In this document: positions 42,517-64,000 of the stretch, piece after piece
Numbering within the stretch: position 1 is the stretch's first letter
How the letters are laid out: every line of letters begins with the position of its first letter
Source of the DNA: Candidatus Heimdallarchaeota archaeon
GTDB taxonomy: Archaea > Asgardarchaeota > Heimdallarchaeia > JABLTI01
Reading direction: 5' to 3'
Assembly (NCBI GenBank): GCA_019056785.1
Contig: DXJV01000068.1
Span: forward strand, 1-64,000
DNA: 64,000 nt
Notes under the pieces: model-generated
Told to the model about the DNA's origin: nothing
The model's database searches: none
What the model saw: the letters and a program-made list of their open reading frames with translations, nothing else
Made by a program: the position numbers and the translations under genes

Positions 42517-44223
42517 TTAAAAGCCTATTCGCTTTTTACTCAAAAATTGATCTTTAATTTTAGTGCAAAACTCTTTAGTTGCTATTCTTTCTCTTGCTAT
42601 TTTCCCATTCTCGAGCATAATAACTCTACTGTTTGGGATGAGTGATAGCAAATCATGAGTTACAACTATGGCTGAGGCGCCTGTACCCATAATATAATCT
42701 ACAAGGAGGCTCATTACTTTGTGTTTGTTCATTTCGTCTAGATTGGCAGTGGGCTCATCTAGAAGTAAAATCTCCGGTGCTTGCAATAATCCTAAGAGAA
42801 ATGAAGCTCTTTTTCTTTCTCCTAATGAAAATTTTGCGACATCTTGATCTGTGATTTCGTCTAATGTGAGAAAGTGAAGAAGAAAATCCTTTTCATAGAA
42901 TGCCCTTTCCTTTTGAGTCTTGTGAACATTAAGGAAATAATTGAGATTTTCATCAAGGGTCATAGAAGGATACAAATTAACATATTGAGATAAATAATAC
43001 ATTTTTTGAGCGCGAACTTTTTCAACAAGAGATTGATTTGAAGAAGAGATAGCCTTGCCAAAGAGCTCTAAAGAACCATTAAAATCCAAGTCCATCCCAG
43101 AAAGAATGTTCAAAAAAGTGGTCTTCCCAGAGCCTGAAGGCCCAATTAAAAACACCAATTCACTTGGAAGAAGTTGGAGATTTATCCCATCAAGGATAAG
43201 CTGATCATTCGGAGAATGATACCACTTTTGTAAATTCTTACATGCTAGGATGGGTGTTACCCCCTTCTTGTGCTTTTTTGGATGAAATCCTGAGATTTTT
43301 ACAAATTGAGGATGTTCTACTTCTTTAAACGCTTCTGAGCCTTGTGGATTCTCGAGGAAGACTTTCTTTATTTCGTAATCAATAACGAATTTTACTTTCT
43401 TATCAAGAGCTAAAAGTTCCTTTATACGATTTGGTAAGAAAAGATAAGAAAAGCTATCAATATGCGAGACAAATATTTCTTTTGTCTGATTTTCCTTTTC
43501 TTGCTCTCCTTCTAAAAGATGTTCATTCAAGTCTTCTTGGGTATACACAGCACCCAACCTACCATTGAAGATTAGAAATGATTCGGAGACAACAGAAAAG
43601 TAAACAGGATCATGGCTTACCACTAAAATAGTTGTGCCTTCTTGTTGGTTTATTGCTTTCAATAACTCAAGGATAACTTGTGTGTTTTTTTTATCAAGTT
43701 GCCCCGTAGGCTCGTCTGCCAGCAAAATAGGCGGATTCGTTATAAGAGCAACAGCAAGACTCACTCGCATGCTTTCTCCCATGGAGAGCTGTTTGGCACG
43801 ATGCTGAGAGAGATGTTTGATTTCCATTCTTTCTAATGCATCTTCTACTACCTTTTTACCTTTTTCCCTGCTTTCCCCTAACAAGCGAAGGGGGATCAAG
43901 AGGTTTTGTTCAACAGATAATTCCGGAAACAAATTATAGTGTGGCATTTGATTAAGAAAGCCAATATTTTGAAGCCGAAATTGGTACAATTTTTTTGGTG
44001 TTAGTAAATCAATATCTTGAGACAACACATTTACTTTGCCACTCGTTGGTTGTTCTAAACCACTTAGAATTCTTAAGAGTGTGGACTTTCCAGCTCCACT
44101 TGGACCGATGATGGAAACAAAACTACTTTCTTCAACTGCCAAATCACATCCACTTAATGCGACAATGGATCGACCCAACTTAGGATTTGGATAAATTTTA
44201 GTTATTGCCTCTAATTTAATCAT
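42517..44223 (-). CDS. Fused tandem ABC ATPase (LolD/MacB-like, two nucleotide-binding domains)
   Basis: 568 residues with two ABC domains. Domain 1 (about 1-225) has Walker A IGPSGAGKST and Walker B ILLADEPTGQLD; domain 2 (about 330-560) has [10 protein letters not shown] and ILLLDEPTANLD. Both signatures are altered: LSMGESMR and FSLGERKR replace LSGGQ. A linker of about 100 residues (about 225-330) with charged and hydrophobic patches joins them. Its ATG overlaps the stop of the FtsX-type permease by one base, so it powers that permease. In the second cassette at 60-64 kb the two ATPases are separate genes. Confidence 0.88.
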   Translation of the reverse strand: MIKLEAITKIYPNPKLGRSIVALSGCDLAVEESSFVSIIGPSGAGKSTLLRILSGLEQPTSGKVNVLSQDIDLLTPKKLYQFRLQNIGFLNQMPHYNLFPELSVEQNLLIPLRLLGESREKGKKVVEDALERMEIKHLSQHRAKQLSMGESMRVSLAVALITNPPILLADEPTGQLDKKNTQVILELLKAINQQEGTTILVVSHDPVYFSVVSESFLIFNGRLGAVYTQEDLNEHLLEGEQEKENQTKEIFVSHIDSFSYLFLPNRIKELLALDKKVKFVIDYEIKKVFLENPQGSEAFKEVEHPQFVKISGFHPKKHKKGVTPILACKNLQKWYHSPNDQLILDGINLQLLPSELVFLIGPSGSGKTTFLNILSGMDLDFNGSLELFGKAISSSNQSLVEKVRAQKMYYLSQYVNLYPSMTLDENLNYFLNVHKTQKERAFYEKDFLLHFLTLDEITDQDVAKFSLGERKRASFLLGLLQAPEILLLDEPTANLDEMNKHKVMSLLVDYIMGTGASAIVVTHDLLSLIPNSRVIMLENGKIARERIATKEFCTKIKDQFLSKKRIGF

Positions 44224-47150
44224 CAGGTTTCCTCCCTTATTGATGGCTGGAAGTTTAAGAACTTCTTTAGATAGAAATACCGAATACTAACATCAATTCC
44301 AATTATAACTACTATTAGAACAGAAAGATAAACAGAAATCTTGGAAAAATAGGGGACTTCAAGAACCCAATTATCCGCCTTAACAAGGATCTTTAGGAGA
44401 AAAGTAAGAGTACCAATACCAGCGGCACAGCCAATTGGGAACATTAATACTAGGAGAAGGAGATACTCGAGTAAGAATCCTTTTGAGATGTTTCTAATTG
44501 GAGTACCCCGATAACGCAATACAAGTATCTTTTCGCGGCGGTTGTTAAGTTCCTCTCTAGTTAATACAATATTTGTAGTGAAAAAGCTTATCGTTGCAAA
44601 GACACCCGAGGTAATTGATAAAGCAAAAATGCTGGTAGAAAAGGTGGGCAAGTACTTTGGATACCAATCAATCCATGTTGTTGGCAAAAAAGAATAGCCA
44701 AGAGCATCAACTTCTTGTAAAAATTGCTTAACTTCTACATGCTTTTCAAGTTTTACAAGAACAGCTTCTTCAATTATAATAATCAAGATGTCTTTTTGGT
44801 GGAGAAGGATGGTTTTAAAACCCCCTTCTGTCATCACAAGAAATGGAACCGTTCTTCCCTCTTCGTACTGTGCGTCCATTAACTCTTGATCATTCAGAAG
44901 AATCGGAAAGCGGTTAAAAGTTCCCCAAACAGTAAAATTAACTTTCACGAATTCATTTTCTGAAGCTGAGAGATTGTTTATTCCTATGGTGAGCAGACTC
45001 TCTCCTTGTTCAACTTCAATTCTATTGTTAAGAAAATCATCTTTTGATTGCGTTAGAATGGCATTAGTTCTATTGCAAAATTTCTCTAAACTATTTTTTG
45101 TGATCCCCATATGGTATTCTTTAGCATACGCTACAGTGGATCCAAAAGTGGGAGAAACAACAAGGACCTGGTAAACAACATTATAAATTGTCAATTGAAT
45201 AAAAGAATAATTGGCTGTAGAAGAGACCGAAGGAAGAGAAGAAACATCTGAAATAAAGCTCTCAGTAATAGAAGGTTGTTCTAAACGAAATGAAACATCA
45301 GAGCCGAGCATAAATCTTGCTGAATTAGCAGCGTGTTGAGTGAGGTAGGCCGGAAGAATGAACGATTGTAAGAGGATAAGGAAAAAGAGTCCAATAAAAA
45401 AAGATTGTTTTCTTTGATGCTGAAAGGCAAAAGACAGATTGTGTAATAAAATAGAGAATTTTTTAGAGACTTTTTCCCAGAGAGTTTGGGCGGTTGATAC
45501 CACTTTCAAGAGTAATATATTTATCAAAATAAAAAGAACGCAAACAACTACCATCGCAATAAAAAGATATGAAAAAGTGTTTAGAATGAAGCTTAAACTT
45601 GAAGTTAAATCTTCTTGAGCAAATAAAAATCTCTTTACTAGTAAAAAGGATGTTAACCCAATTAATCCAAACGTCGCCATTAAGCTGAAAATTAATAGCT
45701 GCATTTTCGATGTGTTTTTAGGATGAGTGGAGATAGAACTAAGGCGATTCGGGAAAGAAGCTTCAACTTGCTTGAGAAGAATTACCAAACTAATTAATGA
45801 AAAGCCAAAGATTATGATAAAAAACAGCAATGAGGGAAGAAAAACAGTAGCGAATGAAATGAGTTGTAATGGAAGAAAGTGTGATTTTAATAATAAGGTG
45901 ATTATCGCCAAATTACCATATGTTATAGGAAAGGCAAACAGAAGAGCGCAAAAAGCAGAAAGGGCCAACTCCAGAAATCGTGCCACTGAAAAAATTTTGA
46001 GAATGGTTTTTCTAGAAAAACCGCGAGTCAAAAAATTTGTGTAAATATCTGATGTTTTTAGAATGTTTGTCGAGACACTAAACCAAAGAATTGCTATTGA
46101 AAAAACTGTGACAAGGAGTCCAATTGCGATTAGACGGAACCACTGTTGCCGTATTTCACTTTTGAACGCCGCCATAAATTCAGCCAATTCTGGGCTCACG
46201 TTTGCGAAAAGCCCATGATAATAGGAGGGGCCTGAAAGTTTGGGCAAATTTTCTGCTGTCTTATAGAGTTCTTTTAAGTGAGAAATTTTGAAAGAAGAAA
46301 AATCATAAAGGAATTGGACATTAATGCTAATCTCAGAATATAATAATGCAGGGAAATAATGAAAGAAATCGGTTAGATAATCGATTGGGACTAAGAGTAA
46401 AGGGTGTTGAGAAATAAACCCCAAATTGCTACTTAAAGCGTGATGGAGAAAAGGATTTTCTGTGCTGAGTCTCCCTTCAAGGAGGAAATCATTCACTGAA
46501 AAATAGTTTGAGATACTAGCGTTTAAAGGGTTTATTAGAAAGGTGTTATTAATGAATACATCATCAATTTCTAAAGAAAATGGTAGAATAGAAATATTAT
46601 CCCCAATAGCGTAAGAATATTCGTACTCATCAGTTGGCAAATCGGTATTTCTCACCAAGATAACCTCATTATAGGCAACCGGCATCGTTTCGAAGGCAAA
46701 ATACTTGGAGGCTTGCATTAGAGTTTCATTTTCTAGGAACAGAACAGTTAGTGGTGCGAATGTTCCTTGTGCGAAAAATTGCATTTCTGCTTCGCATAAC
46801 ATTAATCGATCAGTTATATATCCTTCTAAGTTTGAATAAGAAATGATTTCTGTCACATCTTCGTCAATATTCTTTAGAAGGTCTGAGGGGATGTTGCTCG
46901 TGTTCGAAAGATAAGACTCACTCATCATGTAATACAGAGAATAATAGTCATCTTGTTCCAATGGGTGTAACGTTTGATATTCAGGTAAAAAAGAGGATTG
47001 CACACTTAGTCCGGTAAAAAGGGTAGGGAAGAATAAAAGGAAAGGAAGCATGAAACTTAAAAGATTAAAAGTTAATTGTCTCTTGTCACTAAAAGAAAAG
47101 GAAAATGCACTATAGAATAGTGCTTTGAAAGAGAGCTTTTCTTTGGACAT
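44223..47150 (-). CDS. Large FtsX/MacB-type ABC permease
   Basis: 975 residues. An N-terminal helix (about 28-48), an extracytoplasmic domain of about 290 residues, then helices at about 340-365, 390-420, 430-465, 485-510 and 525-560. A further helix, FFIGLFFLILLQSFILP, precedes a second ectodomain of about 220 residues, and three C-terminal helices form the FtsX-like core (GVFATISFFTTNIVL, LEYLLLLVLMFPIG, ISVYLSVLIVVIIG). This is the duplicated FtsX/LolE layout, which does mechanotransmission or lipoprotein/lipid extraction rather than classical transport. It overlaps both operon neighbours by a single base, implying tight co-translation. Confidence 0.85.
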   Translation of the reverse strand: MSKEKLSFKALFYSAFSFSFSDKRQLTFNLLSFMLPFLLFFPTLFTGLSVQSSFLPEYQTLHPLEQDDYYSLYYMMSESYLSNTSNIPSDLLKNIDEDVTEIISYSNLEGYITDRLMLCEAEMQFFAQGTFAPLTVLFLENETLMQASKYFAFETMPVAYNEVILVRNTDLPTDEYEYSYAIGDNISILPFSLEIDDVFINNTFLINPLNASISNYFSVNDFLLEGRLSTENPFLHHALSSNLGFISQHPLLLVPIDYLTDFFHYFPALLYSEISINVQFLYDFSSFKISHLKELYKTAENLPKLSGPSYYHGLFANVSPELAEFMAAFKSEIRQQWFRLIAIGLLVTVFSIAILWFSVSTNILKTSDIYTNFLTRGFSRKTILKIFSVARFLELALSAFCALLFAFPITYGNLAIITLLLKSHFLPLQLISFATVFLPSLLFFIIIFGFSLISLVILLKQVEASFPNRLSSISTHPKNTSKMQLLIFSLMATFGLIGLTSFLLVKRFLFAQEDLTSSLSFILNTFSYLFIAMVVVCVLFILINILLLKVVSTAQTLWEKVSKKFSILLHNLSFAFQHQRKQSFFIGLFFLILLQSFILPAYLTQHAANSARFMLGSDVSFRLEQPSITESFISDVSSLPSVSSTANYSFIQLTIYNVVYQVLVVSPTFGSTVAYAKEYHMGITKNSLEKFCNRTNAILTQSKDDFLNNRIEVEQGESLLTIGINNLSASENEFVKVNFTVWGTFNRFPILLNDQELMDAQYEEGRTVPFLVMTEGGFKTILLHQKDILIIIIEEAVLVKLEKHVEVKQFLQEVDALGYSFLPTTWIDWYPKYLPTFSTSIFALSITSGVFATISFFTTNIVLTREELNNRREKILVLRYRGTPIRNISKGFLLEYLLLLVLMFPIGCAAGIGTLTFLLKILVKADNWVLEVPYFSKISVYLSVLIVVIIGIDVSIRYFYLKKFLNFQPSIREET

Positions 47151-48595
47151 TAATTGCTTTCCCTCGGCCTTTTCTTTTTAAGGAAATAGAAGGTTAAACT
47201 TCCAATTAAGATTGATGGGGTTATAATCGAAGCAGTGATTATCAGCCGGAAATAAACGATCCTTATTGCTTTAATAAGGAATGGTTTTTTAATTTGGCTT
47301 GCAGCTGGTCCAAGGACACTAATAGCTGATATAATTTTAGACCCACCTCCAATAGAATGGTAGGGGGATGCATTTCCATAAATAAAACCTAGGAAGTACG
47401 AGTCAATAACCTCTTGGGTGTTAATATTCCACGAAAAACTACTATAAAATGGCTCATAATTTTCATCTAACCCTAAATCAACAAAATTCCAACTAGGGTT
47501 GTCCTCGGTTAGGTTATAACACCCCCTGTATAATCTAGGACCAATATGAGGCACATTCCTTAAATATAACAAGTTCACTTCGGAGCCATTCATCGCAACA
47601 TCAAAAAATTTTGGAGCAGTCTCGTAGTAAATCTCATTTGTAATATATTGGCCAAAAATTCCATAAGCATTTGTTGTAGTGCCCTGTAAAACAAATGTAT
47701 GTATTGTTTTATTATACTCAAAAAGGGCAAACTCTGATGAATAACCGATACTTGTAGGCAAAAAGTAGAAAAACTTGCCAGTGGTTTGATCGAAAAGCAA
47801 TCTCCCACTATTAATTTCATAATTTAGATAAGAGAATGAAATATTTATAGGGCTCATGAATGTTTGGGTAGTGAAATTAAAAGGTAAGAAGAGGTAATCG
47901 TCCTCTGCTGTAAGGTTTTTGAAGAGAAAATATGCGCAGTTAAGGGTTGTAGCATAGCAAGAGGAGACCGGCGTTATCTTTCCATTAAGTGTGAAAGTTT
48001 GTTTGTTTACCGTTGTACCTTTTATCTTCAGAGAAATTACTTCTGTTGCTTTACTCTCACTACTGATACTAGTAAGGAGAAAAACATTCTCGTTGTTCAA
48101 GAAGCGTATGCCAAGTAACTCTGGGTTGTAATAGTAATTCGAATATACATATTCATTGACATTTAAAAGAAAGATTTTTCTACTGAAATTTGTGGTGGCA
48201 TTGTAATAATAGTAATAATAATTGTGGTCGTATCTTTGATTGCTTTTGTTTTCTTCTGTTGCAAGATAAGCAACAGAAAAGGATTGATCTGCAAAAGCTG
48301 AGAAACATATTTCATTATTCAGATAAAACTCTTCTTGTATGATGTTTTTCTTAACTTTCCCCTCTTCAACTGAAAAGTGTATCAAGTCTTTTTTGTATTG
48401 TTGAATAGATGCATAAATCAAGTGAATGTTATTAGTACCAACCATTCCACCATAGATGCCAAATTCTCTATTCGATGTTACTACAATATTATTTAATGAC
48501 ATTGAAGTTGAAACAGCTAAAATTTCACAATTTGTCATTAAACAGATAGACATAAAAGCAATTCCCAGTAAGATTTTCTTTTCCATGCTTTTCAT
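47150..48595 (-). CDS. Membrane-anchored extracytoplasmic protein, propeller-like, partner of FtsX permease
   Basis: 481 residues: signal peptide (LLGIAFMSICLMTNCEILA), a large beta-rich ectodomain of about 390 residues and a C-terminal helix (IVYFRLIITASIITPSILIGSL) with KKKRPRE tail. The ectodomain shows repeated strand patterns (IHLIYASIQQYKKDLIHFSV, FSVAYLATEE) and a Tyr-rich run (DHNYYYYYYN). Its stop overlaps the permease start by one base, so it is probably a dedicated partner of that transporter. Family not recognised. Confidence 0.72.
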   Translation of the reverse strand: MKSMEKKILLGIAFMSICLMTNCEILAVSTSMSLNNIVVTSNREFGIYGGMVGTNNIHLIYASIQQYKKDLIHFSVEEGKVKKNIIQEEFYLNNEICFSAFADQSFSVAYLATEENKSNQRYDHNYYYYYYNATTNFSRKIFLLNVNEYVYSNYYYNPELLGIRFLNNENVFLLTSISSESKATEVISLKIKGTTVNKQTFTLNGKITPVSSCYATTLNCAYFLFKNLTAEDDYLFLPFNFTTQTFMSPINISFSYLNYEINSGRLLFDQTTGKFFYFLPTSIGYSSEFALFEYNKTIHTFVLQGTTTNAYGIFGQYITNEIYYETAPKFFDVAMNGSEVNLLYLRNVPHIGPRLYRGCYNLTEDNPSWNFVDLGLDENYEPFYSSFSWNINTQEVIDSYFLGFIYGNASPYHSIGGGSKIISAISVLGPAASQIKKPFLIKAIRIVYFRLIITASIITPSILIGSLTFYFLKKKRPRESN

Positions 48596-48659
48596 CTCTC
48601 ATTTAATTTTTACTTTTTTTCTATAAAGACCTTTTTAAAAAGAAATAAAACCTCCATTT

Positions 48660-48791
48660 TTACGGGGGCCAAGGATCAGGAAAAGTGACGTATGCTAAAA
48701 CATCCTCAATTTCATTGTCTGCTCCAGAGGAGAAATAGTCATCTATATGGCTCCAAAAAGAAGCCCAATCATCATGCGAAATATCCGCCAT
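48660..48791 (-). CDS. 43-residue acidic ORF overlapping the end of the secreted protein gene
   Basis: An ATG inside the last codons of the secreted-protein gene opens 43 codons in a shifted frame (MADISHDDWASFWSHIDDYF, then an acidic stretch and a TFPDPWPP end). The sequence looks protein-like. It is either a coupled small gene, with a 20-bp overlap, or the true C-terminus of the upstream gene displaced by a frameshift. I cannot choose. Confidence 0.35.
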   Translation of the reverse strand: MADISHDDWASFWSHIDDYFSSGADNEIEDVLAYVTFPDPWPP

Positions 48792-49317
48792 CGGTCCAGT
48801 AGGCATATTGATTGTCCCACCGCCAAGAGGCAATGGTATAACCGTTATTATAGAATTCCATTGTTGCGTATTGTGTGAATTGCCAGATACCGACTTTTAA
48901 ATCATCTCCTGCGCTTTCTCCGAAATTATATTTGTATGATTTGTCGCTATGAGAGCCATCATATACTGTTATTCGCATACTGAAATCGTTCCAGCTATCA
49001 CCATTAGAATTCGAAGCTACAATAATTAAAAAGTCCATGTAGTTTAAATATGGCATGAATGCTGAATCAGGTCCGCTTAAAGTCTCATAGATATCAAAAT
49101 CATCTTTTCCTGTAGTTTCATACGCGAAATACCTAGTTGCTTTTCCTCCTGTAGAAGGAACATCAACAAGTAAAATTAATACGCTGTCGCCATATAATCC
49201 AGACCCATTAAAATGAATCCGTATATTATCGACATAAGCTGAATTAACAAAAAAAGAATTCAAGCTAAGTATAGTCAATAATACGGCAAAGAGAACAAGA
49301 AATCTTTTCGTTTTCAT
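48772..49317 (-). CDS. Small secreted protein upstream of first FtsX-type cassette
   Basis: 181 residues with a signal peptide (FLVLFAVLLTILSLNSFFVNSA) and a beta-rich, aromatic mature domain, without a membrane anchor. GGAGG lies 7 bp before the ATG. A conserved element shared with the gene at 59805 lies immediately upstream, about 11-95 bp before the start codon. The mature proteins are not visibly homologous, so the shared signal is regulatory. No known family recognised. The C-terminus may be affected by a frameshift. Confidence 0.68.
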   Translation of the reverse strand: MKTKRFLVLFAVLLTILSLNSFFVNSAYVDNIRIHFNGSGLYGDSVLILLVDVPSTGGKATRYFAYETTGKDDFDIYETLSGPDSAFMPYLNYMDFLIIVASNSNGDSWNDFSMRITVYDGSHSDKSYKYNFGESAGDDLKVGIWQFTQYATMEFYNNGYTIASWRWDNQYAYWTDGGYFA

Positions 49318-49328
49318 TTTTTTCCTCC

Positions 49329-49412
49329 CATAATTTTTCCTATTCCAAAACCAAGAATAGTTGTAAACACTAGGATTAATAAAAAAAAGGTTGTTTTCTT
49401 TTACGTAAAAAA
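49329..49412 (-). promoter_or_regulatory. Conserved element, copy 1, with TTTTACGTAAAA palindrome
   Basis: The palindrome TTTTACGTAAAA (49399-49410) is 82 bp before the ATG of the secreted-protein gene. Downstream, on the coding strand, AGAAAACAACC plus a T tract could be BRE/TATA. ATTAATCC and GTTTTGGAATAGGAAAAATT are shared nearly unchanged with copy 2 at 59709. Differences are a 2-base length change in the T tract and a few transitions. Probable promoter and leader; the palindrome suits a dimeric repressor or activator. Confidence 0.65.
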
Positions 49413-49604: not shown

Positions 49605-49713
49605 GAGTCTGTAGCGCAGCTAGGATAGCGCGGCAGCCTTCTAAACGGCTCATGACGCAATCATGTTCGGGAGTCGTTGCAGGTCGAGGGTTCAAATCCC
49701 TCCAGACTCGCCA
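49605..49713 (+). tRNA. tRNA-Arg (anticodon TCT) with 31-nt intron
   Basis: Acceptor GAGTCTG pairs with CAGACTC (49703-49709), followed by discriminator G and an encoded CCA. D stem GCGC/GCGC, anticodon stem GCAGC/GTTGC, T arm GAGGG-TTCAAAT-CCCTC. The anticodon TCT is at 49640-49642 after T33. The intron, 49644-49674, lies at the canonical 37/38 position and is removed by the splicing endonuclease, after which RtcB (encoded at 36111) would join the exons. Confidence 0.93.
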
Positions 49714-50458: not shown

Positions 50459-51463
50459 TTAAAACAACCACCTTATTCCGTGATAGCATGCTACTGCAAT
50501 AATACCACTAATTAATGGCGTTAAAAGTACAAACAGCACAACCATCCGGATTGTTTTGAAATTTATCGGTTTATTCATCCCCATTCCCGCCCCCAGAAAA
50601 CTTGATACGAGGACCATTGTTCCTGAGACAGGAATACCCAATATAACTGCTGTAAAGACCACTAATGCTGCTGAGCCCTCTGTTACAAAAGCCGATTCCG
50701 GTGTTAGTTCCACAACCTCATTTCCTAAAGTTTTCAATACTTTCCAGCCAATAATGATCAACCCAAGCCCCAAACCTGCTCCTCCAATAAGTAAAGGAAT
50801 GCGCGAATACCAATAATCTGCGGCACCAACACGCCCTGTGGCAGTAAATAACGGGACAATGGGAGCAATTGCGTTGTTAATGTCATTACCTGCCCGTGAG
50901 AGCCCTGTCCAGACAACCATTAGAAGGAGAAACACACCAAAAACGGAGTTTGCTGTTTCATGTTGCCTTAAACTTCGCACGGTATTTTTTAGAATATATC
51001 TCACGAGTTTCATCAGTAAGAACGAGATGGTGAAGCCCAAAATCGGTGAAATAACCCAAGTGGTTAAAACCCTCCCCATTCCGGACCACCCCCACTCAAC
51101 TTTGTATCCCTGTGCAAAAGAAATGCCTAAGATAGCTCCTACGAGGGCTTCGGTAGAAGAAATAGGCAAACCAAAAACAGATGCAAGTATCAAACTGATG
51201 GACATAGCAACATAGATAGAAATGAGCACAGGGTCATCTTGCATGGGCAAATCAGGGGAAATGTTATTTCGCAATGTTTCGCCGACATTTTTAGAGAGAA
51301 AGAATCCGCCGATTATTGCGATTCCCGCGCCTAGGAATACCGCAGTACGAACTGTTAATCGTTTTACCCCCACTACTGAGGAAAACGTTTCATCATTAGC
51401 TCCAATAGCGAAGGCTAACATCAAGGAAACAATTACTATAACAATTAATATAACATCCACCAT
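50459..51463 (-). CDS. pit: PiT-family inorganic phosphate transporter
   Basis: 334 residues, about ten helices in two inverted repeats. The paired PiT signatures are GANDETFSSVVGVKRLTVRTAV near the N-terminus and AGNDINNAIAPIVPLF in the second half; the ISSTEALVGAILG segment is also typical. Low-affinity phosphate symport with H+ or Na+ is known for the family. It is flanked in the same direction by DUF47-like genes and opposite the pst operon, giving the cell both low- and high-affinity phosphate systems side by side. Confidence 0.93.
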   Translation of the reverse strand: MVDVILIVIVIVSLMLAFAIGANDETFSSVVGVKRLTVRTAVFLGAGIAIIGGFFLSKNVGETLRNNISPDLPMQDDPVLISIYVAMSISLILASVFGLPISSTEALVGAILGISFAQGYKVEWGWSGMGRVLTTWVISPILGFTISFLLMKLVRYILKNTVRSLRQHETANSVFGVFLLLMVVWTGLSRAGNDINNAIAPIVPLFTATGRVGAADYWYSRIPLLIGGAGLGLGLIIIGWKVLKTLGNEVVELTPESAFVTEGSAALVVFTAVILGIPVSGTMVLVSSFLGAGMGMNKPINFKTIRMVVLFVLLTPLISGIIAVACYHGIRWLF

Positions 51464-51514
51464 TTTAAATCACTGGCTTGTTATTTCACTTTGTGTTCAA
51501 CTTCAATCTTCTTT

Positions 51515-52213
51515 TTAGACTTCGCTAATGACAATCGAACGCAAAACATCAGAGGCGTCTTCTGCCGCATTTGCAGCTAATTCAATATCTTTCATTGCAT
51601 GATCGAAAATATTCAATCCAGCAAAATTCTCTGCATAGTCTTTGTATTCAAAATAATGGTTTTTTAGTCGCGTATACAAGCCATCCATTTGATGCTCTAG
51701 AAAGCTGATTTCTGTAGTCAGGTCAATTGTTCGTTGAATGTCTTTGCGATATATGGATAGGGCTTCCGCCAGTTTATCTACTGCCATATTTAACAATTCA
51801 CAGCTTTTCATAATCTCCTCGAAAATATGTTTTGGCAATTTTACCTTATGCATGATTTGCACATTTATACCTGCCCTTTTTGCATTATTGGCGACCTCAT
51901 CAACCCGTTTAATAAATGTCAGAATATCAGCCCGGAGTTTTGGTTTTAGCGTTCCTTTAGTAAGTTCTAGCCACATGTCTGCCAGCAACTTATCTGCAGC
52001 GTTTTCTTCTGCTGACATTATCCCAATTTCTCTGTCAAGGTCGGTAAATTTTCCATCATACCATGCCTTAAATGCACGTGTTAAAGCTCTTGTGACAAGC
52101 TGGACGCGGGACAGATGTTCTGTCATTTTGTTCTGAATCTCTTGCTCGGCGCTTTTTCTGAAAAAACTACTGCGAAACTTCATAGCGTTCACCATAACTC
52201 GTTTGTCTTTCAT
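51515..52213 (-). CDS. DUF47 (PhoU-related) PiT accessory protein
   Basis: 232 residues starting ATG, possibly at an internal ATG near residue 8 or 11. All-helical, with EENAADKLLADMWLELTKGTLKPKLRADILTFIKRVDEVANNAKRAG as the conserved PhoU/DUF47 core, and MDGLYTRLKNHYFE later. DUF47 proteins are almost always encoded beside PiT transporters and are thought to modulate them. This one is 51 bp upstream of pit. Confidence 0.88.
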   Translation of the reverse strand: MKDKRVMVNAMKFRSSFFRKSAEQEIQNKMTEHLSRVQLVTRALTRAFKAWYDGKFTDLDREIGIMSAEENAADKLLADMWLELTKGTLKPKLRADILTFIKRVDEVANNAKRAGINVQIMHKVKLPKHIFEEIMKSCELLNMAVDKLAEALSIYRKDIQRTIDLTTEISFLEHQMDGLYTRLKNHYFEYKDYAENFAGLNIFDHAMKDIELAANAAEDASDVLRSIVISEV

Positions 52214-52317
52214 TTATTCATTTTGCCTAAAGGTGTTAAGAATAAAAAGATTGTTGTGGTAATTTCAAAAAAAATGGTCTTCTATCTAAAACGCGTAAAT
52301 GAAAAAAAGCAAGTGAA

Positions 52318-52686
52318 CTATCTCTTCTTAAGGCTTAGTGCTACAATGACTCCCAGGAATGTTAAGCCACTAAATGCTATTGGCAAGTATGTCGCTAGAA
52401 AGTTTATTTGCCCAACATAAGGATAAAATTCAATCTCAAGGTAGAGAGGATCTTGTTGGACGGCGGTAAAACCTTGGCCATTATCAATTTCAAAATAAAT
52501 CCCTGTGGCGATTTGAGCTACTTTCGTGTCAATACTCATATTATAGTGCCCATTATTATTGCTATATTTAGTTAACCAGATGTAGCCAAGATTACCATAA
52601 CTTTCTTGTTCTTCCGATGCCAATTGCTCATGATCCCAAAAATTCAATAATAAAGCATTGCAGGAATGGCCTATAGTATACAACAC
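52318..52686 (-). CDS. Short membrane-anchored protein, possibly a gene fragment
   Basis: 122 residues from a GTG, directly below an in-frame stop. There is no signal peptide, yet the C-terminus has a membrane helix (LPIAFSGLTFLGVIVALSL) and KKR, as in the anchored surface proteins here. The body (YIWLTKYSNNNGHYNMSIDT, GQGFTAVQQDPLYLEIEFYP) looks extracellular. It may be the 3' remnant of a larger surface gene whose 5' end is lost. Confidence 0.45.
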   Translation of the reverse strand: MLYTIGHSCNALLLNFWDHEQLASEEQESYGNLGYIWLTKYSNNNGHYNMSIDTKVAQIATGIYFEIDNGQGFTAVQQDPLYLEIEFYPYVGQINFLATYLPIAFSGLTFLGVIVALSLKKR

Positions 52687-52899
52687 TTCGGCGATGTTTT
52701 AAGTTTCTTCTTTAAAAGCTTAAGCAAAAACACCTTTTTCCCTCAAAAAGAAAGACAAGATCCGGCTCTTTCCTGGTTTACCTTTTTTTTTCAAGAAGTA
52801 CAAAACCCCTTACTTATCTATTTGCTTAACTTCCCAAAAGATAATAAAGGACAACTATTTATTTTGCATATTGATTAATTCCTTTCTTGGTGCTAAACC

Positions 52900-53781
52900 A
52901 TGGTCTCGCCGGATAATAGCATTAAGCGTGATGAGAATGATGGGGCTGACCAAAGAGCCCTGGCAATTGCTCTTGCTTCTGATCTATCTGACCGGCTGGA
53001 AATTGTGAGCGAGGAGTTTTTAAAGACCGAAAAAACTAAGATGGAAACAATCAACCTCTCCCATTGGTACAACGAAAAACGCGTCTTAGCTGGCATTAGT
53101 TTGCCTATTTTTAAGAATAAAGTTACCGCTATTATCGGCCCCTCAGGGTGTGGCAAGTCAACTTTTCTTCGCGACTTGAACCGTATGAATGACATTATCC
53201 CCACTGCCCGTATTTCGGGGGAAGTTTTATTGGATGGGCAAAATATCTATGACAATAAAATAGATGTTGTTTCCCTCCGAAAAAGAGTTGGCATGGTTTT
53301 TCAAAGACCAAACCCTTTTCCTATGTCTATTGAGAATAATGTCGCCTATGGTCCATATATCCATGGTGCACAACCTGAGGAGTTAGCAGCTATCGTTGAA
53401 AGCACCCTACGAAAAGCTGCTCTTTGGGAGGAGGTTCGCGACCGTTTACAGGACAATGCTTTATCCCTTTCGGGAGGACAGCAACAAAGGCTCTGTATTG
53501 CCCGTGCTTTGTCTGTTGAACCAGAAGTTATTTTATTTGATGAACCCTGTAGTGCTCTTGACCCGCATGCAACGGCGAAAATAGAAGACCTTATTACTAA
53601 TTTGAAAAAAGATTACACTGTGGTCATCGTTACCCATAATATGCAGCAGGCCGCCCGAGTGTCTGATTACACAACTTTCTTTAATTTTGGTGAGCTGATT
53701 GAATTTAATACAACGAGGAAGATCTTCAAGTCACCAGAACGAAAGATGACGGAAGAATATATTTCCGGGCGTTTTGGCTAA
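52900..53781 (+). CDS. pstB: Phosphate ABC transporter ATP-binding protein PstB (first copy)
   Basis: 293 residues with an N-terminal extension of about 45 residues beyond the usual PstB start. Core motifs: [18 protein letters not shown], Walker [20 protein letters not shown], signature [15 protein letters not shown], Walker [21 protein letters not shown] and the switch [17 protein letters not shown]. The Walker A-adjacent DLNRMND is specific to PstB. It heads a row pstB-pstB-phoU-pstS-pstC-pstA. A second, closely related pstB follows 17 bp downstream. Confidence 0.92.
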
Positions 53782-53798
53782 TAAAGTGGTGGAACCTC

Positions 53799-54674
53799 TT
53801 GAATATTGTGAATAAAAAACTCTTAGCGAAGGAAACCAAGGAGGAGGACATTGTACCAGTTGATATGCGCGCTTTATTCAAAGATGAAACTGAAATTATT
53901 CCTGAAAAGCTTGTGAAAAAATATGAAATCCGAATGGCTGTCAAGAAACTGAGCCATTGGTATGGAAATAATCATGTTCTCTCCGGCATTTCGCTCCCCA
54001 TTTTCAAAAATAAAGTCACTGCTATTATTGGCCCCTCAGGCTGCGGAAAATCAACATTCCTTCGCGACTTGAACCGAATGAATGACCTTATCAAGATTTC
54101 GAGAGTTCGTGGAAAGGTCTATCTCGATGGCATTAACATTTATAGTGAAGGTATTGATCTAATCCAATTACGAAAGAAAATTGGCATGGTCTTCCAAAAA
54201 CCCAACCCCTTTCCCATGTCCATTCGTGATAATATTACCTATGGCCCCATTATTCATGGAATAAATAAGGCTTATCTTCCAGGGCTTATTAAAAGCTATT
54301 TAGTAAAAGCTGCTCTTTGGGATGAAGTTCATGACCGCTTATCTGAGAGTGCTTTCTCACTTTCGGGAGGGCAACAACAAAGATTATGCATTGCACGAGC
54401 TTTGTCAATCGAGCCGGAAGTTATCTTATTTGATGAACCCTGTAGCGCTCTCGACCCACATGCAACGGCAAAAATAGAGGATTTAATTACGAAATTGAAA
54501 GCCGAGTACACCGTGGTAATTGTCACTCATAACATGCAACAAGCGGCCCGGGTATCTGATTTCACGGCTTTCTTCAATTTGGGTGAGCTAATAGAATTTA
54601 ACTCTACCAGAGATCTCTTTCGAAGCCCCATAAGAAAAATAACAGAGGAATATATTTCCGGGCGTTTTGGCTAG
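53799..54674 (+). CDS. pstB: Phosphate ABC transporter ATP-binding protein PstB (second copy)
   Basis: 291 residues with a TTG start supported by GTGGTGG 6 bp upstream. Motifs are as in the first copy: [56 protein letters not shown], and an identical ISGRFG end. Divergence is concentrated in the N-terminal 50 residues and in the helical subdomain ([17 protein letters not shown] versus [14 protein letters not shown]). Both keep all catalytic residues, so a heterodimeric ATPase or condition-specific exchange is possible. Arose by tandem duplication. Confidence 0.92.
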
Positions 54675-54728
54675 ATAGTTTTAAAATAATTGCTGACTAA
54701 AAATAATGATAATAAATTGGTGAAAATA

Positions 54729-55406
54729 TTGAATGAAACACGAAAAAGCTTTGGTGGTACTATTCGTTTCAAAGAACTGATGGATGAACTCAATAGTTAC
54801 CTTGGAAAGCTGACCGATTTAGTTATTGAAATGATAGAAAAAGGACATAAAGCACTCATTGAAGATGATGAGGGCTTATTTAAGAAAATTGAGGAAAACC
54901 TTTGCAAGGTTCATGAGCTTTCTTATCAAGTAGAAGACAGCGTCCAAAGCAGTTTGGCACTTCACCAACCGTTTGCAAGTGACCTTCGGTATATCTTATC
55001 AACTTTGAAAATCACCAACGAAATTCACCGCTCAGCACACGATGCAGTTCACATTGCCAATAGTACCACCTATGTTGATATTGCATTAAATAAGGAACTT
55101 ATCAAACGTGTGGTTGAATTAGCTAAGCGCGCGTCTCTAATGTTTGAGAAGAGCATTGATGCTTTTCGCCACCGGAAAGAACTTGATATTACGGAATGGA
55201 AAAAATTGGATGATCGCGTGGATTCACTCCACGCCAAACTTATCGATGACATCATCGCAAAAATCCAAAAAGAACCTTCTTGGGCACGAGCAGGTATGAG
55301 TCTTGTTTTGGCAACCAGATATATCGAACGGATAGCCGACCACGCCTGTAATATTGTCGAAGAAAGTATTTTTGTGGTGACAAGTAAACGCGTTAAAATC
55401 GAATGA
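54729..55406 (+). CDS. phoU: PhoU phosphate-signalling protein
   Basis: About 225 residues from TTG at 54729, chosen for GGTGA 5 bp upstream; TTG at 54690 would add 13 residues. Two PhoU repeats: ENLCKVHELSYQVEDSVQSSLALHQPFASDLRYILSTLKITNEIHRSAHDAVHIA and, in the second, LDDRVDSLHAKLIDDII and ATRYIERIADHACNIVEE, each with the E/D-rich metal-binding pattern. It links the Pst transporter to the phosphate response. Lies between pstB and pstS. Confidence 0.9.
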   Translation: MNETRKSFGGTIRFKELMDELNSYLGKLTDLVIEMIEKGHKALIEDDEGLFKKIEENLCKVHELSYQVEDSVQSSLALHQPFASDLRYILSTLKITNEIHRSAHDAVHIANSTTYVDIALNKELIKRVVELAKRASLMFEKSIDAFRHRKELDITEWKKLDDRVDSLHAKLIDDIIAKIQKEPSWARAGMSLVLATRYIERIADHACNIVEESIFVVTSKRVKIE

Positions 55407-55508
55407 ATCACTCTTGGAGTCTATCCAGGAAACCATACACAAAATTATTATGTAAAAAACCAATCAACAGAACACAAAAAAATCGTGACAAAAATTGGTG
55501 AGAAAAAA

Positions 55509-56423
55509 ATGTCCTTTGGTCGTCCTTCCAAACAAACCGTCTGGATTTTAATTGCATTAATACCGATAGCTGCTAGCTCGGGCTTCTTTCTGGGCTGGGC
55601 ACTCTATGGGGGTCATGGTGGTTTTGCAACCGTCACGCTTGAAATAAAAGGTTCAACAACGGTGGAACCAATTTGTCTTGCGACAGCGCCCATATTTGAA
55701 GCGACGCACCCAGGAATTCAGATTGGCATTTCTGCCGCAGGTTCAGGCACAGGCATTTCAGCTGTAATAGATGGAACCGCAGACATTGGAATGTCTTCTC
55801 GGCAAGTCAAAACCGAAGAAAATATCACGGCACACGAAGAAACTAATTTGTGGTTACGCTCCTTTCCGATCGCAAAAGATGCACTGGTAGTTATAACAAA
55901 TGCTGCAACAACAATCACACCTTTCGATATGAATCTCACGCTACTTCGAATGATCTTCAATGGCACCATCAGCAGTTGGGATCATCCTTCATTAGCCGGC
56001 CACGGTTTAACAGGAGCCATCCAAGTTATCGCCAGAGAATCAACCTCAGGAACACGCACAGCCTTCGATGAAATGGTCATGGGAGATGATGATTATGCAT
56101 CTGACTTCCAAGAAAAGGTTTCAAATCAAGAAGTACATGATGAAATTGCCAGCAATCCTCAAGCAATAGGCTATATTGGACTTGCATACATGAGCCCTAG
56201 TGTAAAAGATGTCCTCATTGATGGCATTAATGCTTCTAAAGAACATGTTCGGGATGGTAGTTATGAGCTTTCCCGGAGCCTTTTTCTGGTGACTCTTGGC
56301 ATCCCTAATGTTGATTCGCTCATCTGGGAATATGTACAATGGCATTTGAGTCCAACAGCTCAAAATTATGTTGAAGAACTTGGCTATATTGCTGTTCAAG
56401 CTAAGAGAGATGATTTTATTTAG
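55509..56423 (+). CDS. pstS: Phosphate ABC transporter substrate-binding protein PstS
   Basis: 304 residues from the ATG at 55509, supported by GGTGAG 6 bp upstream; a GTG at 55485 is an alternative. A single N-terminal helix (VWILIALIPIAASSGFFLGWAL) anchors it outside. Phosphate-binding motifs: IKGSTTVEPI, SAAGSGTGISAVIDGTADIGMSSR, and ARESTSGTRTAFDEMVM. No lipobox Cys. It delivers phosphate to PstC/PstA. Confidence 0.92.
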   Translation: MSFGRPSKQTVWILIALIPIAASSGFFLGWALYGGHGGFATVTLEIKGSTTVEPICLATAPIFEATHPGIQIGISAAGSGTGISAVIDGTADIGMSSRQVKTEENITAHEETNLWLRSFPIAKDALVVITNAATTITPFDMNLTLLRMIFNGTISSWDHPSLAGHGLTGAIQVIARESTSGTRTAFDEMVMGDDDYASDFQEKVSNQEVHDEIASNPQAIGYIGLAYMSPSVKDVLIDGINASKEHVRDGSYELSRSLFLVTLGIPNVDSLIWEYVQWHLSPTAQNYVEELGYIAVQAKRDDFI

Positions 56424-56425
56424 AC

Positions 56426-56443
56426 GAGGAGGCGATAAACATA
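56426..56443 (+). promoter_or_regulatory. Strong ribosome site aligned with an in-frame ATA before pstC
   Basis: GAGGAGG (56426-56432) is 8 bases before an ATA at 56441 that is in the pstC frame (ATA TCT GAA CCT). The nearest conventional start, TTG at 56462, is 29 bases from the site. This suggests an AUA start, or an ATG lost by mutation or base error. Confidence 0.5.
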
Positions 56444-56461
56444 TCTGAACCTCAAGACAAG

Positions 56462-59708: not shown

Positions 59709-59793
59709 TTTTTTACGTAAAAGAAAACAACCTTTTTATTTTATTAATCCCAGCGTTTACAACCATTCTTAGTTTTGGAATAGGAAAAATTGT
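59709..59793 (+). promoter_or_regulatory. Conserved element, copy 2, with TTTTACGTAAAA palindrome
   Basis: The palindrome at 59711-59722 lies 82 bp before the ATG at 59805, the same distance as in copy 1. TTTTTTACGTAAAAGAAAAC and the following CAACC are identical in both, then a T tract, ATTAATCC, GTTTACAAC and GTTTTGGAATAGGAAAAATT. It is far more conserved than the proteins it precedes, arguing for a common regulator. Confidence 0.65.
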
Positions 59794-59804
59794 GAGTTGG
59801 AAAA

Positions 59805-60335
59805 ATGAATCGTAGAAAGAAAGTTGTTTTAACGGCATTAGTTTTAAGCATTATGACATTGGCAGGTCTGGGGGCACTGAGGACTATTTCAGACACCATC
59901 ACTTTAAAGAAAATCAGAGTTTACGTTTATTCCATAGATATTTATGACGACTTCCGGACAGGAAGCTATGAACTATTGCTTAGCTTCAAGTTTATGCGTC
60001 ATTTTGGCGATTTTGGCGGGCATCTTATTAATAACGATGACCAATATCCTAAAACAAACACCTACTTTGAAAGTTGTGAAACCTTCGATGGCGGAGTTGA
60101 AGAGATAAAATATTGTTATGAATACTTTGATTACAGCTATTGTAAACCATTAGGCAAGGCAAATGGCATCGTTCTGGTAACTTTTCGTGTAAAGAAAAAT
60201 GTCTTTAGCCATGAAGATCTCGTTTGGGGCTTAGGTGGGCTAGATGATACTTATGGCGTATACTACGAGAAAACCCTCTATTTTAAAAAATATAATGGAG
60301 GATTAATAATAAAGTATATGTTTTTAGAGGTATAA
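59805..60335 (+). CDS. Small secreted protein upstream of second FtsX-type cassette
   Basis: 176 residues; signal peptide (VVLTALVLSIMTLAGLGAL) and a beta-rich mature domain with three cysteines (FESCETFDG, IKYCYEYF, YSYCKPLG) that could form a disulfide. There is no C-terminal anchor. It is not visibly related to the small secreted protein at 48772 although the two share an upstream element. It is followed by a permease and two ATPase genes on the same strand. A secreted substrate or accessory of that system is inferred. Confidence 0.68.
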   Translation: MNRRKKVVLTALVLSIMTLAGLGALRTISDTITLKKIRVYVYSIDIYDDFRTGSYELLLSFKFMRHFGDFGGHLINNDDQYPKTNTYFESCETFDGGVEEIKYCYEYFDYSYCKPLGKANGIVLVTFRVKKNVFSHEDLVWGLGGLDDTYGVYYEKTLYFKKYNGGLIIKYMFLEV

Positions 60336-60413: not shown

Positions 60414-63122
60414 ATGGAGTTTATTTATAGATTATTTGCACGTAGAAAATATCTACTGAGGAGTTTCTTTATTATAAGTTTGCTTGTGTTTGCCTCATTA
60501 ACTGTTACATTCTTACCCCAAATAGTTAACCCACATATCCTTAGAAAATACTTAAATGATTTTGTTGTTGGGCATTCAACTGTAGCTCAAAACACCACGA
60601 CAGCAGACTATGACTTTAGATTTTTGATCCATTCAAACACACCTTCTTTTCTCAATAATATGAACAGCATCGCTGAAAAGGTTTCACAAAAGGTTTATGG
60701 CATGTATCAGGTTGATGAAATAATTTTCTTCACATATTTTTCATTAGCAATTCTTAATATTTCGAATTCTGATTCTTTCTTAATTGGTGTTTCAACAGAA
60801 TTTTATCAAGCACTCACCAACTCTTGTTTATATCCTCATACTCCCGGCGCCATTTTGCTTTCACAATTTCAGAATGATTCACTTGGTACTTATCAGGTAT
60901 CACTTCTTGGGATAGATGCCACACTCAATGTTACAAATAAGATTCTAGCAAGTAACTTTACTACTGCGTTCCCTAATTTTGAGCACTTTCTTCGTGATTA
61001 TTTGCTGTCCATGCGATTACCAGATCGACTTTTTTTTATGCCAATTAACGAATTGATAATACAATATGATATACTTATACAAAGTATTTGCAGCACTTGT
61101 TATTCTCTGCAAGGATATATCCTTTTCACCCAGAATCAGAAAGACATTATTTGCTGGTCAAGGGATTCTTTAAAGATGGTTAAGCAATTTGAAACCTTAT
61201 TTATGAATGAACTCAAAGTAGTTAGTACTATTACTTTTTTTTCCATGAGCCATAACGTTTACATCGAAGAGAATATCATCTCAAAAACTGCTTATGCTTT
61301 TATCAGCACAATTCAGTTGATAGTTTGGACTATCTCAATTATTTTATGTTTGCTAACGATAAAGAAACTTCAGAGTTGTAATTTCAAACATGAACTTCGA
61401 ATATTGTTCGCCGGCAAACGTTGGCATCAACGCCTTTCATATCACCTCCTAGAAAGCTTGATGCTAAGCTTCGCTAGTGTTCTTGTTGCTTCTGCTTTTC
61501 TTTTCCCTTTTCTAAAAGCTCTAATGCTTTTTCAAATGTCTTTTTCTTTTTCGACTACGTTCCTGCTTCATCTCTGTCTGATTCATACTTTTGTTTTCTT
61601 TAGTATATTCAGTGTTTTCATAGATTTTGAGTTCTTTTTACATAGGAATATAGAACATTATTCTGAAAAAATCGAATATCGACTCTTTGCTAAAATTCCT
61701 AGGCCAATTAAGTGGTTGATCCCTTTCATAGCTGTGCTAATTTTTTGGTCCATCCGAACAGACTGCCTTGCTTTGCTTATGTATGTGTCCTTTGTAGTTA
61801 TTTCCTTCTTTGTAGGTTTACTGACTGCCTTGTTTGCGCGGATAATGCTATCTCTTGGGATGCGACATTATTATAAAAAGAAGGAACGTTTGGATAATCC
61901 ACTTAGCTCAAAATTTATCTTATTAAAGCTTTGGCACAAACGTTTGAAAACTAAGCTATTTACTCATACTTTTGTTTTGGTATTAGTTTGTTCGGCTTTT
62001 CTCTTCATGAATTATTCCGCAGATGCAAAACGAAGTGAATATTTATGGTGGATGGGGGCGGAAATAGGGGTTAATGTTCCCGCAGAAAATACTTCTGCCA
62101 TAACTAATGCTTTGGATGGCATCCCCAAAATAATCGATTTTACCCCGAAAATTATTTTCAACCGATACTCTAAAGGAGATGAAGTTTTTAGTTATAGATT
62201 TAATGGGTCGACAATAATAGAAGTTAGCAGCAGCTACATGGGGGAACGCATTGATGGAATAGTTGGGCTTAATTTTTCGGATTATTTTCAATTTTATAAT
62301 GATTGGAATAAAAAAGGGTGGTTGAAGGATGGTGAGCTAAAAGGATTTGATGAACAGACAATTTTTGTTTCTCAAGCAATTCATGCTATGGGGATTAAGG
62401 TTGGTGACACTGTTTCCTTTTATAACAGCTCCTATAATTTTACCGTCAAGGGGATAATAGGCGCCTGGCCTTCAATAACAGATCAATATGGAACAATAAG
62501 CTCGTCTAAGCAACTCTTTATTATTGACTTGGGTTTTCTTCAAGGATTTCTAAAGGCGAGTAACATATCCTACAACATTCATTATAAGGTCCATACTGCT
62601 GAGAGAGACATTCAGACTGTGGTGGATATTTTATCTGGAATTACCACTATATCAATTAATGAGTTGGAATATTTAAATTTGGAAGTGTTTGTAGGGATAC
62701 GAAAGATCTTCTTAAATCCGATGATTATTTTAGCTCAATTATTGCTCTTTTTATGGGGTGGTTTATTCCTATATGAGAATTTTGAACGGGATACTTTAAA
62801 CTCAAAAATTAAACAATTAGGCATTATTGCCCTCATAAAAGACAATAAACGCCCTCTTTCTTGGTATCTGTTTTTCGAAGGAAGTTTACTTTACCTTGCC
62901 TTCTTTTTTGTTTTTGTAGTGATGTTTGCGATTACCTTTAGCTTCTTGCAAGGCTTTGGTGTGCTTTATAATATGAAAACGATTGTAATTTCCCGCTATA
63001 CTATCTACAATTCGATTTTCTTGCTCATCTATTATCTTGGGTTGTTAATTTTTCAACCTTTGATTGAATATCGCAAATTAAAAGAGCTAAATCTAAGCTT
63101 GCTATATCGACATTCGGAATAG
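60414..63122 (+). CDS. Large FtsX/MacB-type ABC permease (second cassette)
   Basis: 902 residues. An N-terminal helix (LRSFFIISLLVFASLTVTFLP) is followed by an ectodomain of about 240 residues, six central helices (about 295-530), a second ectodomain of about 220 residues, and three C-terminal helices. The layout matches the 975-residue permease at 44223, though sequences are far apart. GAGGTGTAA precedes the ATG. The two downstream ATPases replace the fused one of the first cassette. A lipid or lipoprotein extraction, or signalling, role is suggested by family only. Confidence 0.85.
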   Translation: MEFIYRLFARRKYLLRSFFIISLLVFASLTVTFLPQIVNPHILRKYLNDFVVGHSTVAQNTTTADYDFRFLIHSNTPSFLNNMNSIAEKVSQKVYGMYQVDEIIFFTYFSLAILNISNSDSFLIGVSTEFYQALTNSCLYPHTPGAILLSQFQNDSLGTYQVSLLGIDATLNVTNKILASNFTTAFPNFEHFLRDYLLSMRLPDRLFFMPINELIIQYDILIQSICSTCYSLQGYILFTQNQKDIICWSRDSLKMVKQFETLFMNELKVVSTITFFSMSHNVYIEENIISKTAYAFISTIQLIVWTISIILCLLTIKKLQSCNFKHELRILFAGKRWHQRLSYHLLESLMLSFASVLVASAFLFPFLKALMLFQMSFSFSTTFLLHLCLIHTFVFFSIFSVFIDFEFFLHRNIEHYSEKIEYRLFAKIPRPIKWLIPFIAVLIFWSIRTDCLALLMYVSFVVISFFVGLLTALFARIMLSLGMRHYYKKKERLDNPLSSKFILLKLWHKRLKTKLFTHTFVLVLVCSAFLFMNYSADAKRSEYLWWMGAEIGVNVPAENTSAITNALDGIPKIIDFTPKIIFNRYSKGDEVFSYRFNGSTIIEVSSSYMGERIDGIVGLNFSDYFQFYNDWNKKGWLKDGELKGFDEQTIFVSQAIHAMGIKVGDTVSFYNSSYNFTVKGIIGAWPSITDQYGTISSSKQLFIIDLGFLQGFLKASNISYNIHYKVHTAERDIQTVVDILSGITTISINELEYLNLEVFVGIRKIFLNPMIILAQLLLFLWGGLFLYENFERDTLNSKIKQLGIIALIKDNKRPLSWYLFFEGSLLYLAFFFVFVVMFAITFSFLQGFGVLYNMKTIVISRYTIYNSIFLLIYYLGLLIFQPLIEYRKLKELNLSLLYRHSE

Positions 63123-63123
63123 G

Positions 63124-63834
63124 ATGGTGGAAAAAATTACAGAAGAAAAAACACTTGTCGTACATGATTTGACTAAAATCTTTGCCCATCCATCAAAAAA
63201 AGACACCAATTTTTCTCTTTTTGCAGGTGCTTCTTTTAGAATGACCAATAATGCCCCCAATTTCTTATTGGGGGTTTCAGGTTCAGGGAAAACTACATTA
63301 CTTCGAATTCTCTCGTCGCTTGAGCCCATTAATGCGGGGGAGTTATTCTTGAATGAGATTGCCATTCATCTTCTCAGGGGAAAGGAAAAAACTGCCTTTT
63401 TACGGAACCTTGGAACTATGGATCAATTTCCGGCAAATAATCTTGCGTTGTCTCTTTCTGTCAGGCAAAATTTAGATTATACACTGACCCTTTATACCTC
63501 TTTAACACGAGAAGAACGGCAAAAACGAATTAAAGAATTCATTTCTCTCGTAGGGTTAGAACGACATCTCGAACGGCGCACTTTAGTTCTTTCAGGGGGA
63601 GAGCTCCGCCGTTTGGCTTTACTTTGTAGTTTAATCTATGAGCCTGAGTTGCTCTTATGCGATGAGCCGACCTCGCAACTAGATCATAACAATAAGCAGC
63701 TGGTTATTCGGTGCATTGAAGAACTTCAGTCTATTTCTAACGCGTTAATAGTGATTGCTACTCACGACCGGACAATTAGTAATAAAAATCCAACCTATGA
63801 GATAATTGATAGGAGGATACAAAAATGTCAGTAG
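63124..63834 (+). CDS. ABC transporter ATP-binding protein (LolD/MacB-like)
   Basis: 236 residues. Walker [15 protein letters not shown], signature [12 protein letters not shown], Walker [13 protein letters not shown], His switch IATHDR. It begins 1 bp after the permease stop and its stop overlaps the next ATPase start by 10 bp. It corresponds to one half of the fused ATPase of the first cassette but keeps a canonical LSGGE signature. Pairs with the next gene as a heterodimer. Confidence 0.9.
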
Positions 63835-64000
63835 TTTCATTAAAGAATATTACTTATAGTGTAGAAGACAAGCATTCAAAAGAATTGATATCTATCTTGG
63901 AAGACGTTAATTTACAAGTAGCGGTTGGAGAATTCCATTTGATAACAGGCCCTTCAGGTTCAGGAAAAACCACTCTGTTACAAATCATTGCCACTATTCT
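63825..64000 (+). CDS. ABC transporter ATP-binding protein, partial (window end)
   Basis: Opens with ATG preceded by AGGAGG 8 bases upstream, overlapping the previous ATPase gene by 10 bp. The first 58 codons reach Walker [10 protein letters not shown]. It is the second ATPase of the cassette and is cut by the window end. Confidence 0.85.

Follow-up and report, generated by a model that had tools for sequence, protein, structure and literature searches.

A shared promoter-like element ahead of two unrelated secreted-protein cassettes in a Heimdallarchaeota genome, and signs of cargo replacement in close relatives

Why would two gene cassettes with unrelated cargo begin with nearly the same upstream sequence? 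The question arises on contig C98 of a 2.87-Mb Heimdallarchaeota metagenome-assembled genome (MAG), here called G000, within the window that we analyzed (the whole stretch of 64,000 nucleotides). A 95-bp element, 89% identical between its two copies, stands ahead of two outward-facing cassettes and spans the distance from the palindrome TTTTACGTAAAA to the start codon. We propose that it is probably one shared promoter-leader unit expressing both cassettes together, and that it belongs to a system in which secreted proteins are exchangeable and the promoter is the anchor. Comparison with relatives suggests that the more interesting result is promoter-anchored cargo exchange: an earlier note that drew attention to the element had missed that, in these relatives, the promoter borders an exchangeable block of cargo.

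Copy 1 lies upstream of SEC1 on the minus strand (49318..49410) and copy 2 upstream of SEC2 on the plus strand (59711..59804). Their palindromes occupy 49399..49410 and 59711..59722, exactly where the earlier note had placed them, and the distance from palindrome to ATG, reported there as 82 bp, measures 82-83 bp (ATGs at 49317 on the minus strand and 59805 on the plus strand). The same note held that differences outside the T tract were transitions only; this is accurate along most of the element, where the copies differ by transitions and a 2-bp T-tract indel, and fails in the last ~12 nt. Since the indel shifts the frame, the element is not a coding remnant or a common coding segment, and no Rfam family matched within it. 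Both copies terminate at a start codon, and at the other end their similarity breaks off abruptly at the palindrome: the next 90 bp outward align with a score of 11 (shuffled mean 9.0), which 83 of 500 shuffles reach. Among 56 upstream regions of G000, the element pair scores 74 and the runner-up pair 20. A search of the entire genome with the 97-bp copy 2 returned the query itself and copy 1 (49319-49410, 89%, E 1e-28), with no third copy in 2.87 Mb; the remaining matches, with E values of at least 0.13, are noise.

Several features fit a promoter, namely the position of the element, its abrupt right-hand end at the start codon, a TATA-like tract and an analogous leader pair in the related genome G008. 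The tract, TTTTATTAAT, is the putative core promoter and lies 56-58 bp ahead of the ATG in the two copies (49375..49384 on the minus strand, 58 bp before the ATG, and 59739..59748 on the plus strand); TATA positions across 114 upstream regions of the genome show no clear peak. Further downstream, an invariant leader tract, GTTTTGGAATAGGAAAAATT, occupies 49332..49351 (minus) and 59772..59791 (plus). The palindrome may at most be an operator. The earlier note had recommended a genome-wide search for it, and this recovered two further occurrences in G000 (C11 and C31), both without the element, the one inside a coding sequence and the other close to a tRNA gene; the palindrome is therefore not a regulon marker by itself.

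Cassette 1, on the minus strand, is ordered SEC1, LP481, PERM1 and ATP1, and cassette 2, on the plus strand, SEC2, PERM2, ATP2A and ATP2B. SEC1 (48772..49317) encodes a putative secreted or anchored protein of 181 aa with an N-terminal helix and a predicted beta-sandwich, the low-confidence model of which (pLDDT 59) has no clear structural match. SEC2 (59805..60335) encodes a putative secreted or anchored protein of 176 aa, and its low-confidence model (pLDDT 67) is a beta-sandwich resembling C2 domains (Foldseek E 3e-4, TM 0.39-0.49). No homology was found between the two (hhalign probability 1%), in agreement with the earlier description of them as unrelated. That description also gave each cassette a permease, two ATPase domains and a secreted protein, all of which are present, and overlooked LP481 in cassette 1 (47150..48595, minus strand), a predicted 481-aa secreted ectodomain with a C-terminal transmembrane segment.

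The permeases depart further from the initial account, which called both FtsX-type and distantly alike. PERM1 (44223..47150, minus strand; 975 aa) is FtsX-like, with a Pfam FtsX match (E 3.5e-5) of 24.3 bits that falls just under the cut-off of 25.5; PERM2 (60414..63122, plus strand; 902 aa) has no Pfam FtsX match. No relation between the two is detectable (BLASTP E 0.76; hhalign probability 5.7%), and no PDB relatives were found for either. The paired ATPase domains are fused in ATP1 (42517..44223, minus strand; 568 aa, LolD/FtsE type by profile matches) and encoded by two genes in cassette 2, ATP2A (63124..63834, plus strand) and ATP2B (from 63825 on the plus strand past the window edge at 64000 to C98 position 64496; L003 5826-6497). 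Top NCBIfam matches of the ATPases are LolD, FtsE and the lactococcin-972 export ATPase, and those of both cassettes are of the LolD/FtsE/MacB type. Such machinery might export the cargo or display it at the surface; nothing in the analysis points to the role in envelope stress that had been suggested.

The element copies form inverted repeats around 10.3 kb, and the synteny around them is peculiar to G000. They enclose a phosphate transport cluster (50459-58368) comprising a PiT-like permease, PhoU-like proteins, PstS/PstC/PstA and two tandem, diverged pstB genes. Between copy 1 and these genes is a tRNA gene with an intron (49605-49710; Rfam tRNA, 53 bits) that ARAGORN missed in bacterial mode. 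Directly upstream of copy 2, and divergent from it, is a gene for a secreted YiiX/C92-type permuted papain-like amidase (58413-59648, minus strand).

Which relatives carry the cassettes, and which the element, was assessed in genomes that are themselves MAGs and incomplete. Type-1 orthologues, PERM1 among them, occur in G004, G007 and G008; SEC1 homologues are found in these three and G006, and LP481 homologues in G007 and G008 only. Type-2 relatives are present in seven genomes, with three copies in G000. The PERM2 family is confined to this genus (7/9 genomes, compared with 0/48 other genomes searched in the class), and its carriers among named genomes are Candidatus Heimdallarchaeota MAGs; homologues of SEC2 occur in G001, G003, G008 and on contig C91 of G000. 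Outside G000, none of these orthologous or related cassettes has the element upstream, those in G003, G004, G007 and G008 included, the palindrome is absent from every orthologous promoter in the genus, and the two other type-2 cassettes of G000 (C74 and C91) lack the element. The set of co-regulated systems envisaged in the earlier note would thus comprise only two cassettes in G000. Across 56 related genomes, there was no full-length or near-full-length match to the element, only short matches of 19-36 bp (best E 1e-4). Two local arrangements deserve mention. A TrmB-family regulator gene (L041, G000 C91, 8026-9048, minus strand) immediately precedes the SEC2-PERM2-ATPase cassette of C91 and is a candidate regulator of that cassette. 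In G004 (L050, C48, 6387-11262), PERM1 is reduced to its C-terminal half, the tblastn match being interrupted by a stop codon, and SEC1 lies downstream of ATP1 rather than upstream; this cassette is rearranged and possibly decaying.

A second leader pair occurs in G008. The leaders of SEC2a and SEC2b are 97% identical over 62 bp, differ in sequence from the G000 element, and are direct copies 23 kb apart. The cassettes behind them are paralogous, with SEC2 and PERM2 about 29-30% identical and the 4-fold sites of ATP2A saturated at 35% identity. This is the top upstream pair in G008, scoring 70 versus 21 for the runner-up. In addition, the SEC1 (type-1) and SEC2a (type-2) promoters of G008 both carry CGACAANAATTCAA, each 26 bp from a TATA-like box, and they hold its only two exact matches in 4.1 Mb; because the motif was picked after the sequences were seen, it is supporting rather than decisive. 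As the mark of a large regulon, CGACAANAATTCAA was rejected, its one-mismatch matches being only modestly above a reversed-pattern control.

The type-1 cassettes of G007 and G008 show how the cargo varies. These genomes are close (ATP1 is 92%, PERM1 85% and the neighboring genes 83-89% identical), while SEC1 is 40% and LP481 51% identical. In a 60-bp scan, the promoter is 85-93% identical, and identity drops abruptly when the start codon of SEC1 is reached. From there through the noncoding spacer and most of the length of LP481, it is about 55-60% (mostly 45-73% in the scan). It recovers to about 83-90% over the final ~190 bp of LP481 and stays at that level into PERM1. Identical 4-fold sites number 42/87 inside the block versus 459/590 outside it (Fisher p 3e-8). 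Because these sites and the noncoding spacer are equally diverged, selection at the protein level is not a sufficient explanation on its own. The gene trees also conflict: ATP1 groups G007 with G008 (support 100/99), whereas the SEC1 tree, of five rows with long branches, groups G000 with G008 and rejects G007 with G008 (p-AU 0.016). Furthermore, in the stretch between a PfkB-like gene and the SEC1 promoter of G007, immediately upstream of the latter, lies a 187-bp fragment that matches the SEC1 of this genome at 95% identity (L048, C99, 6640-6883). We read this fragment as a visible by-product of recombination. Taken together, the block edges, the tree conflict and the fragment suggest that the cargo has been replaced while the promoter/leader on one side and the permease on the other stayed fixed. 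The evidence for this exchange comes from type 1 in a single pair of close genomes, outside the window's own genome; for type-2 cassettes there is no tree conflict, and the trees of SEC2 and PERM2 would fit joint inheritance. G008 contains a degenerate version of the region that holds the G007 fragment.

For G000, we infer that the element acts as a promoter, that the two cassettes are co-expressed and that recombination duplicated the element; in the genus, exchange may be ongoing. Under the proposed arrangement, the element would consist of a promoter, with TTTTATTAAT as its TATA-like box, and a leader of ~30 nt. Each cassette would encode a large, ATP-driven permease of MacB/FtsX-like kind along with a small beta-sandwich protein that is secreted or anchored in the membrane. 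The two copies would have been made by recombination (duplication or gene conversion) rather than by independent evolution, and two non-homologous cargo genes would thereby have come under one expression control. Genus-wide, the promoter/leader and the permease/ATPase would form a fixed frame between which secreted-protein genes are swapped, with the cargo-swapping recombination breaking at the leader.

The same similarity could instead reflect a long-term shared operator, in which one factor binds the palindrome and purifying selection alone has kept 95 bp alike. The element does sit at the promoter, and leaders are constrained, since those orthologous between G007 and G008 (85-93%) exceed the 4-fold sites of most neighboring genes (mostly 0.63-0.76; ATP1 0.88). 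Strong constraint on the leader is not cleanly separable from recent copying. A binding site, however, would not require an unbroken 95 bp that takes in the entire leader, and orthologous cassettes in four genomes do without element and palindrome alike. Nor was a cassette-specific regulator found: the search for a conserved DNA-binding protein, advised in the earlier note, produced no dedicated one beside all cassettes. A neighboring 1196-aa protein with a TrmB domain was rejected as such a regulator because it is present in 8/9 genomes (G000 counted) and, in G000, is encoded on another contig than the cassettes. We regard the operator as a rather unlikely explanation of the whole element. 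Of the shared promoter and regulator site first put forward, the promoter/leader is retained as the best reading, and the palindrome is at best a putative regulator site, absent as it is from the orthologous promoters of the genus.

Purely structural origins appear less probable still. If the 10.3-kb tRNA/phosphate-uptake segment had been inverted through staggered breaks, an inverted promoter duplicate of no lasting regulatory meaning could have been left behind, as the inverted orientation of the copies and a synteny found in G000 alone would allow; we consider this improbable because each right edge coincides exactly with a start codon, the leader has stayed intact (89%) despite several substitutions, and the same phenomenon recurs in G008 as direct copies. 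Likewise, sharp edges and a 12-bp palindrome at one end might recall a small mobile or MITE-like repeat that landed by chance upstream of two genes. Multiple dispersed copies with terminal repeats would be expected of such an element, and G000 holds just two, lacking terminal inverted repeats on both ends; near-full-length matches are missing from the 56 related genomes, and both copies stop at start codons. The scattered mobile repeat that the earlier note had asked to be checked for is thus not in evidence, and a chance landing is highly improbable.

The shared promoter-leader unit favored here has its closest known arrangement in the erp family (ospE/ospF/elp) of Borrelia, the Lyme spirochete, which seems similar in its working and is a separate family. 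In erp loci, one conserved promoter/leader (the upstream homology box, UHB) precedes divergent surface-protein genes; the family is described as many diverse external-domain sequences attached to a single promoter/leader/localization sequence, and there is evidence of recombination (PMC10016077, PMC7002432). Near-identical promoter/leaders before divergent secreted proteins are found here in the G000 and G008 pairs, and replacement of the coding part with the promoter kept is found in one pair, G007 versus G008. The erp genes, however, reside on cp32 prophage plasmids, encode lipoproteins and have known regulators (BpaB, BpuR and EbfC), whereas the present loci are on an archaeal chromosome, number two copies per genome and have cargo tied to a large ABC permease. 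A shared signal-peptide sequence, as in erp, is not seen in G000, since the resemblance of the copies extends no further than the start codon. In emm switching in Streptococcus pyogenes, too, a surface-protein gene with conserved flanks is replaced by recombination (PMC10700362); there, strain-level events are proven by population genomics, whereas here replacement is deduced from two species-level genomes.

The exporters recall Type VII (MacB/FtsX/Lol-type) ABC systems, such as YbbAP-TesA (PMC12646458), FtsEX-EnvC and LolCDE, in their LolD/FtsE-like ATPases, large permease and adjoining gene for an extracytoplasmic partner, the last judged from gene neighborhood alone. By profile comparison, the ATPases belong to the MacB/FtsE/LolD group; among the permeases, PERM1 is a borderline member and PERM2 is not detected as one. 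Differences from those systems include permeases of 900-975 aa, one of them genus-confined, partner proteins that match no family, and two ATPase genes or a fused double ATPase.

Little is known of how Asgard archaea vary the proteins that they present to neighbors, partners or viruses, and a literature search of incomplete coverage found no account of such loci in this group. A fixed promoter and exporter with exchanged secreted proteins would be a concrete, testable case in a lineage close to eukaryotes. By analogy, we tentatively suggest an archaeal form of cargo switching, in which secreted or surface proteins within fixed promoter/leader and ABC-exporter frames are diversified by leader-anchored recombination. 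A similarly speculative extension would count partial silent copies, such as the G007 SEC1 fragment, as part of this system, comparable to bacterial antigenic-variation or erp/UHB loci. The leaders also provide a sequence-based means of locating additional members of orphan secreted-protein families, and from them one can predict the cassettes that would be jointly expressed.

Finally, some observations concern the leaders and the wider window. Leader hairpins are seen in G003, G008, C91 and G007, with a slight excess of inverted repeats (p 0.03) and of folding energy (p 0.01) over rows that are not independent. As the stem is disrupted in copy 2 of G000 and missing from G008c, yet present in its orthologue in G001, a conserved RNA element was not adopted and the hairpins are left as suggestive. 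In G008 (L097, C4, ~1500-1630), a one-mismatch CGACAAAAAATCAA followed by TTCTCGAAAAGGA, which are also leader words of the G007 and G008 type-1 cassettes, lies upstream of a gene for a 354-aa membrane protein. Elsewhere in the window, positions 6381-8438 encode a repetitive protein with seven tandem repeats of ~285 bp (~95 aa each).
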